Shown here piece after piece: positions 45,476 to 47,339 of a stretch of 64,000 nucleotides of DNA. The notes beneath the pieces were generated by a model. The model did not search any database, had not been told where the DNA came from, and saw nothing but the letters and a program-made list of their open reading frames with translations. Origin of the DNA: Bacteroidales bacterium (GTDB lineage Bacteria; Bacteroidota; Bacteroidia; Bacteroidales; Muribaculaceae). The position numbers and the translations under genes were made by a program. Position 1 is the stretch's first letter; each line of letters opens with the position of its first letter. The stretch covers positions 1 through 64,000 of the forward strand of contig JAAVFV010000016.1 in NCBI GenBank assembly GCA_014800525.1, in the 5' to 3' direction.

Positions 45476-45500
45476 GACATAAGTGGGGATAATTAAACAT

Positions 45501-45605
45501 TAAGAAGTTACTAAAATTTATACGATATCTATGTTTCACAAGTAGTTGGAGTAATCTCCAAAAGAATCTTGCATTTAGTATAAATTAATTTTGAATACTT
45601 ACTTA
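45501..45605. repeat. Inverted pair of dispersed intergenic motif TAAGTA(A/G)(G/T)TAYT(M)AAAATTAATTTATACGATAT
   Basis: taagaagttactaaaatttatacgatatct (45501-45530) and, inverted, gtataaattaattttgaatacttactta (45578-45605); single copies at 12411-12440, 21216-21250, 25493-25510, 26947-26967. Confidence 0.6.
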
Positions 45606-45621
45606 GTCGAATATAACCGAT

Positions 45622-46332
45622 ATGAACCAGATAAAGATTTCCGAAATAGATGTTAACTTATGGAATAAATATAATGTTAATTTTACTCCGCATCCGGATG
45701 TCAACATCATCGTAGGAAAGAATGGAAGCGGGAAGACCACTCTTCTGTCTGCGATTGAGAGAACTATACCTAAGGACTCCTATATTTATATTCCCTCTAT
45801 TGATAATCTTGTGACTCGTGATAAACGAAAGAAGGAAAACGCCCTATCCCAAGATCTTGATTCATATATCTATGATATGAAGACAGGGCCTTCTCTGATG
45901 TATTATCGTATGTCGCTGCTTGATGCCTCCGCTGATGAACAAGCTGTGATAAATGAAAGGATCTCTATGTTCTGCAAAGTGGTCAATAGCCTTTTCAAGG
46001 ATACGGAAAAACGAATAGAAATTGAGGGGAATAAATTCATAATTAATTCAAATGGTATACTTTTATCCACAAATGATCTTTCTTCAGGAGAAAAGCAGAT
46101 ACTTCTCTTACTCTTGAGAGTTTTCCTTCTGAATGAGAGTGAATCGGTGGTGTTGATCGACGAACCCGAGAATTCCCTTGATATAAGTTGGCAGTATAAA
46201 CTGATAGATATATTAACGGAGTTAAATAAGAATGCGCAATTCTTTATTACCACTCATTCACCCAGTATTTTCGGGAATGGCTGGGGAAATAAGATTATAT
46301 ATATGGAGGATGTGACCAAGAAAGAAGTATGA
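45622..46332 (+). CDS. Compact AAA_15/AAA_21 (ABC/SMC-like) ATPase, AriA-like
   Basis: Walker A VGKNGSGKTTLLSAI; signature LSSGEKQILLLLL; Walker B SVVLIDEPENSLD; H-switch FFITTHSPSIF. Confidence 0.88.
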   Translation: MNQIKISEIDVNLWNKYNVNFTPHPDVNIIVGKNGSGKTTLLSAIERTIPKDSYIYIPSIDNLVTRDKRKKENALSQDLDSYIYDMKTGPSLMYYRMSLLDASADEQAVINERISMFCKVVNSLFKDTEKRIEIEGNKFIINSNGILLSTNDLSSGEKQILLLLLRVFLLNESESVVLIDEPENSLDISWQYKLIDILTELNKNAQFFITTHSPSIFGNGWGNKIIYMEDVTKKEV

Positions 46333-47165
46333 GCCGTATAGAAGATCAAGCCAATTACTACAAAAACTATCATTTGCGCTATCGTGATACCATAGCTGTG
46401 ATCCATGTTGAGGATGAGGATGATAAGAATTTTTGGTTGGCGCAACTTAAAAATGTAAAAAAGGGTAATTACCATTTCATCACCCGGAGTAAAAGTGAGG
46501 CTGGTAACAATACAAAAGGTTGTGAGCAATGTCTTAAATATAGACCCTATACCAATGACAAGTTTTTTATTTGCATAGATAGTGATCTTCGGTTATTACG
46601 AGGTGAAGAGAGTTTTACTCCCAAGAACTACATAGCTCAAACCTATGCATATTCATGGGAGAATCATTCTTGTGAAGCAAACCATCTTGAAAATAGATTC
46701 AAGGAGAAAGTGCCTGACAGTAAGTTTAGCTTTGTGACTTTCCTGACACAATTGTCCAATATAGTTTACAAACCACTTCTCTATCTGGTATATCATAATA
46801 CTTCTGAGTTAAATCTAAAATGGAATATCACGAAATTCAACCGTTGCATTCCCACTCAACTCAGAAGAGATAATCTTGAGGAGAATGGTAAGCAATATTT
46901 ACTTAAAGTAAAACAGCATTTCGATGAAGAATTAACTTATCTGAGTCTACCCGAAGATTTCGCTATTGAGGGTCTTAATTCTGAAAACGCTTATCTGCAT
47001 ATTCAAGGTCATAAATTATATGACCTCATAGTAAACATCGGCAGCATGCTATGTAAAGGAAAAAGAGTTGCCTTTAAGTCGGAAGTATTGGATAGTGGAC
47101 TTCCTGTATCCGGTTATATGGAGATTGATAATGTCCAATCTGACTTAACTTCAATCTTGGGATAG
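46329..47165 (+). CDS. DUF4435 (TOPRIM-like) protein, AriB-like
   Basis: IAVIHVEDEDDKNFWLAQL (acidic motif), KFFICIDSDLR (DxD), TYAYSWENHSCEANHLENRF; ATGA overlap with the ATPase gene. Confidence 0.82.
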   Translation: MSRIEDQANYYKNYHLRYRDTIAVIHVEDEDDKNFWLAQLKNVKKGNYHFITRSKSEAGNNTKGCEQCLKYRPYTNDKFFICIDSDLRLLRGEESFTPKNYIAQTYAYSWENHSCEANHLENRFKEKVPDSKFSFVTFLTQLSNIVYKPLLYLVYHNTSELNLKWNITKFNRCIPTQLRRDNLEENGKQYLLKVKQHFDEELTYLSLPEDFAIEGLNSENAYLHIQGHKLYDLIVNIGSMLCKGKRVAFKSEVLDSGLPVSGYMEIDNVQSDLTSILG

Positions 47166-47210
47166 AGGCTATCAAATATCTTGTAGAATCCCCTCCTTAT
47201 TAATCTCACT

Positions 47211-47276
47211 TATAGCCAAATTGATCTATATTTAGAGCTAAATTGATTTCTATGTAGAGCTAAATTGATCTCTATG
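47211..47276 (+). repeat. Three tandem copies of a 22-bp unit (tagagctaaattgatctctatg)
   Basis: ttgat cores at 47221, 47243, 47265: exact 22-bp period. Confidence 0.8.
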
Positions 47277-47335
47277 AAGAGCCAACCCGGGTGTTTTTCT
47301 ACTCTAAAACACCCGGGTTGACTCTTCATAGAGAT
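47268..47335. terminator. 30-bp near-perfect hairpin between convergent DUF4435 gene and cca
   Basis: atctctatgaagagccaacccgggtgtttt / aaaacacccgggttgactcttcatagagat, one mismatch, 8-nt loop. Confidence 0.8.
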
Positions 47336-47339
47336 GTGA

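Follow-up and report, generated by a model that had tools for sequence, protein, structure and literature searches.

A compact PARIS-type gene pair between a helicase gene and cca in a Muribaculaceae genome

Gene pair and insertion site

The window, i.e. the whole stretch of 64,000 nucleotides that was analyzed, carries two genes, denoted ariA and ariB, that overlap by a shared ATGA and lie in an inserted segment between a helicase gene and cca. The overlapping pair of open reading frames described in the original prediction was recovered at the same positions. The features of the locus are as follows.

45476..47339, no strand: inserted segment, helicase stop (45475) to cca stop (47340)
45586..45593, + strand: TAATTTTG, candidate −7 promoter element of the Bacteroidetes type, 5' of ariA
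45622..46332, + strand: ariA, compact ABC/OLD-type ATPase of 236 aa, predicted sensor/antitoxin
45715..45741, + strand: AriA Walker A, GKNGSGKTT, residues 32-40
46078..46092, + strand: AriA ABC signature, LSSGE, residues 153-157
46147..46170, + strand: AriA Walker B, VVLIDEPE, residues 176-183, D180 and E181 invariant
46252..46263, + strand: AriA H-switch, THSP, residues 211-214, invariant
46329..47165, + strand: ariB, DUF4435/Toprim-like nuclease of 278 aa, predicted toxin/effector
46404..46424, + strand: AriB acidic motif, HVEDEDD, residues 26-32, E28 and D32 invariant in 33 relatives
46578..46586, + strand: AriB D84-S85-D86, Toprim DxD, invariant in 33 relatives
47268..47335, no strand: inverted repeat, 30 nt, 97% complementary, 8-nt loop, between the convergent ariB and cca

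All ATPase motifs named in the original prediction were found in AriA (Walker A, LSSGE, Walker B as LIDEPE and the H-switch as TTHSP), and the acidic motif and CIDSD that it reported for the 278-aa DUF4435 protein are both present in AriB. Among 34 AriA relatives, the invariant positions comprise the Walker A pattern GxNGxGK-T (G32, N34, G35, G37, K38 and T40), LSxGE, the DE pair of Walker B and THSP; among 33 AriB relatives, E28, D32, D84-S85-D86, E111 and G227-H228 are invariant. Comparison with the nearest relative (L048), which is 84% identical to the window protein in AriA and 82% in AriB, yielded dN/dS values of 0.05 for AriA and 0.07 for AriB, with dS near saturation; the low values indicate that both genes are under purifying selection and are not chance open reading frames. 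Judging from the sequences, ariA and ariB are kept by selection for function.

The consensus of the Bacteroidetes −7 promoter element is TAnnTTTG, and TAATTTTG is a suggestive candidate for the −7 element of an ariA promoter, with an unconvincing −33 spacing. Downstream of ariB (window 47211-47335), three 22-nt tandem repeat units precede the 30-nt inverted repeat, which is probably a two-way terminator and may end both the ariB and the cca transcripts. Membership of this inverted repeat in a mobile repeat family was rejected because it is present in a single copy genome-wide.

The helicase and cca stops are 1,864 bp apart, with 175 bp between the end of ariB and the 3' end of cca, and the GC content of the inserted segment is about 0.35 vs. 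about 0.49 in the flanks. The original prediction described an island between a RecD-like helicase gene and cca; the site stands, whereas the helicase is better described as RecD/PIF1-like (AAA_30, UvrD_C_2). Comparison of this locus among related genomes, proposed as a check in that prediction, showed that the pair is lacking in three genomes of the same genus, where the helicase and cca genes lie tail to tail with a distance of 0 bp (L045), an overlap of 26 bp (L046) or a gap of 11 bp (L047). Only 6 of the 247 sampled genomes of the window's family carry a relative of the pair, and the neighbourhoods of these carriers differ from one another. Within this family, the pair is an accessory insertion, and horizontal acquisition at the helicase/cca junction is the best explanation for its presence. 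tRNA-associated integration was considered and rejected, no tRNA having been found in the window.

Assignment to compact PARIS

The paper that named PARIS detects the system as AAA_15 or AAA_21 together with DUF4435, with bit scores greater than 32, 27 and 27, respectively (PMC9122126). The window pair satisfies this rule: AriA scores 89 bits against AAA_21 (cut-off 27) and 70.5 bits against AAA_15 (cut-off 32), and the product of the adjoining gene, AriB, is placed inside DUF4435 with 67.1 bits (cut-off 27). PADLOC-DB v2 (2023) includes dedicated short AriA and AriB models, and both window proteins match these nearly end to end, AriA with residues 1-233 (PDLC04164, 253 positions; E 2.2e-93) and AriB with residues 3-276 (PDLC04165, 289 positions; E 2.1e-105), whereas no NCBIfam model exceeded its threshold for either protein. 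The PARIS-like reading of the original prediction, for which a PADLOC search had been recommended, is thus borne out by the dedicated models as well as by fold matches to the solved AriA and AriB. Its alternative, a new split OLD-like pair, becomes superfluous and was rejected, given the better fit of the dedicated models. As to the suggested novelty of the short form, a minimal PARIS is upheld but a new subtype is not: the existence of short PADLOC models implies that the compact form is already catalogued, and it is common in Bacteroidales. A limited literature search found no study of, or experiment on, the compact form. The comparison confirms that the window pair is an ordinary further member of compact PARIS and not a new system; it has the same two-gene order as the PADLOC pair, from which it differs by ordinary divergence only, and its clade, with AriA of 236-256 aa, lies at the short end of the range.

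For both proteins, structures were modeled with AlphaFold from alignments of the window protein and sequences from the relatives' genomes. In the search of the AriA model (pLDDT 93.1) against the PDB, the top matches were E. coli AriA chains (8v45, 8v47 and 8ux9; E about 1e-11 to 1e-9, the best being 2e-11; TM about 0.65-0.7 by query length), which outrank most retron/Septu PtuA chains. The solved AriA is 464 aa long vs. 236 aa here, in line with the earlier remark that the window ATPase is shorter than characterised AriA proteins. By sequence, the two proteins align in two pieces, residues 6-52 and 82-220 of the window AriA with residues 6-53 and 292-431 of E. coli AriA, so that the window protein lacks about 210 of the residues that lie between Walker A and the signature in the E. 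coli protein, residues about 54-291 of E. coli AriA being shrunk to about 29; a family-profile alignment agrees on the missing residues. The AriA model is devoid of a long antiparallel coiled coil, and its longest helix spans residues 104-128. The large insert of E. coli AriA that is absent here is not a defining trait in PADLOC or in the published PARIS rule.

The AriB model (pLDDT 94.5) has a single notable match in the PDB, E. coli AriB (8v46_D; E 2.3e-3, probability 1.00), which is weak (TM 0.41); the next match has an E value of 0.46. Neither a single-sequence nor a profile search with AriB detected any sequence match in the PDB, the solved E. coli AriB included. In E. coli AriB, the E26A substitution yields an inactive protein (PMC12409363), and E28 of the window AriB is likely to be the counterpart of this catalytic E26.

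Compared to E. coli B185 PARIS (PDB 8ux9, 8v45-8v49), the window pair has in common the combination of an ABC/OLD ATPase with a Toprim nuclease, the gene order, the ATPase motifs and the folds, but differs in the length of AriA and in the sequence of AriB. Septu and retron PtuA are related ABC/OLD-type ATPases that match less well than AriA, and in Septu (PtuAB), the partner is the HNH nuclease PtuB rather than a DUF4435 protein. OLD/Gabija GajA likewise combines an ABC ATPase with a Toprim nuclease, but both domains reside in one chain as opposed to the two open reading frames here, and the match to AriA is far better.

Distribution, inheritance and defence context

A genome scan identified 33 loci, all in Bacteroidales except for one record labelled Staphylococcus (Staphylococcus sp. 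NALB_7821b_12; L041/L059). The neighbour genes in that record correspond to the genes at a Muribaculaceae locus (L061), which makes a labelling error probable. The length of AriA ranges from 236 to 296 aa in the 30 pairs from the Bacteroidales scan, which argues that its shortness is a lineage trait and not a truncation. AriA lies directly 5' of AriB at every locus where both genes are readable, and the AriA and AriB distance matrices are strongly correlated (r = 0.955; 0 of 2000 permutations as high). The clade that includes the window pair (n = 7) is represented in Muribaculaceae, 'Porphyromonadaceae' bins and one Prevotella, at different loci.

A different pattern was observed in Odoribacteraceae, where the compact pair is present throughout several genera (6/6, 8/8, 3/3, 2/2 and 2/2 genomes) but absent from others (0/9, 0/7 and 0/6). 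At most of the examined Odoribacteraceae loci (L062-L077, e.g. L071:3444-7107), the pair adjoins a DUF486 gene, and in the Odoribacter-type loci, ruvB is located downstream. These observations suggest long vertical inheritance of the compact pair in Odoribacteraceae; genus-wide presence at a kept position implies that the family can be a stable resident and not only a mobile island, a pattern less typical of accessory defence. No AriB relatives were detected in IMG/VR viral contigs or in phage records, so viral carriage was rejected, and a plasmid search with AriB produced only 3 matches, all distant.

In Salmonella (D23580), PARIS is embedded in BREX (PMC11341690). Similarly, in Prevotella sp. 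885 (L053:24-8306), a compact PARIS, the AriB of which is 51% identical to the window AriB, is flanked by brxC and pglX within a BREX operon; the likeness to the Salmonella system is one of genomic location, and the window pair itself lies outside any BREX operon. In the closest relative of the window pair (L048), an AbiD gene is found about 1.9 kb downstream. The published rationale is that PARIS acts as a backup of restriction (PMC9122126; PMC12839542). The window's genome encodes, on contig 9, HsdM, HsdR and HsdS-like components of a type I restriction-modification system, which fits this rationale, short of proof.

Another DUF4435 protein of the same genome is an AriAB-type fusion of 584 aa (C30:12756-14507; L043:8757-10508), encoded between the riboflavin synthase gene and glgB. 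The fusion occurs in the majority of the sampled genomes of the genus (43-52% identity) and retains the Toprim acids, whereas the Walker B glutamate is replaced in 7 of 7 aligned proteins (FIDSP or FIDAP vs. IDEP); it is a predicted near-core PARIS-like gene. Upstream of the pair at another locus (L049:548-3920) lie three genes, possible cargo, whose products of 362, 240 and 410 aa matched no Pfam or PADLOC model.

Proposed mechanism and alternative readings

In PARIS, an AriA hexamer sequesters three AriB. In E. coli, AriA hexamers hold AriB until a trigger such as Ocr frees it, and AriB dimers then nick tRNA-Lys and other tRNAs (PMC12409363; PMC11455837). We consider it probable that the window pair is a compact PARIS of the Bacteroidales type that was acquired horizontally, with AriA holding AriB until a phage trigger releases it to arrest growth by cutting RNA. 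What the sequence data show directly are the gene pairing, intact motifs, profile and fold membership, selection, insertion and co-inheritance. By analogy with the E. coli system, AriA would assemble through its ABC heads, bind AriB and keep the nuclease inactive; a phage protein, most likely a restriction inhibitor, would alter the AriA assembly, and the freed AriB would dimerise and cut RNA, most likely tRNA, with E28 and D84/D86 as its metal site, halting the growth of the infected cell. The complex, the release, tRNA cleavage and abortive infection are all modeled on E. coli PARIS; given the missing AriA residues, the way in which AriA forms a hexamer, captures AriB and binds a trigger is not simply transferable from that system. 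The trigger of the compact form may well differ from that in E. coli. More tentatively, the compact Bacteroidales branch, lacking the large AriA insert, could have a distinct PARIS function, with another mode of assembly, triggers other than Ocr-like proteins and, in Odoribacteraceae, a fixed, vertically inherited pair.

Alternative readings concern the chemistry of AriB, the role of the pair and the integrity of AriA. A toxin/antitoxin arrangement like that of PARIS could operate with an AriB that cuts DNA or an RNA other than tRNA, comparable to OLD-type Toprim nucleases; OLD Toprim domains cleave DNA (PMC12409363), and the sequence of the window AriB has diverged too far to match that of the solved tRNase. 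However, the sole notable fold match is AriB rather than an OLD, Gabija or RNase M5 chain, and we regard this possibility as unlikely. Even less probable is that the pair is a domesticated host regulator or a stress toxin-antitoxin module rather than a phage defence system. The fixed, syntenic position by ruvB or DUF486 in several Odoribacteraceae genera is compatible with domestication, but the sporadic presence in the window's family, the AT-rich insertion at an otherwise empty site, the neighbourhoods that vary by carrier and the close relative within BREX all argue against it. Finally, because AriA has only about half as many residues as the solved protein, it could conceivably be a decaying, truncated remnant next to an intact AriB; the 30 pairs of similar length and the purifying selection (dN/dS about 0.05), along with the fully intact nucleotide-binding motifs and the confident model (pLDDT 93), reduce the probability of decay to a negligible level.

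As a compact PARIS, the window pair may include the smallest working PARIS sensor, in which AriA is reduced to a bare ABC head that pairs with the nuclease. With such a bare head, the parts of AriA needed to hold AriB could be cleanly told apart from those needed to sense the phage. In the present gut Bacteroidales genome, PARIS occupies an otherwise empty chromosomal site, while related genera retain it as a fixed pair.
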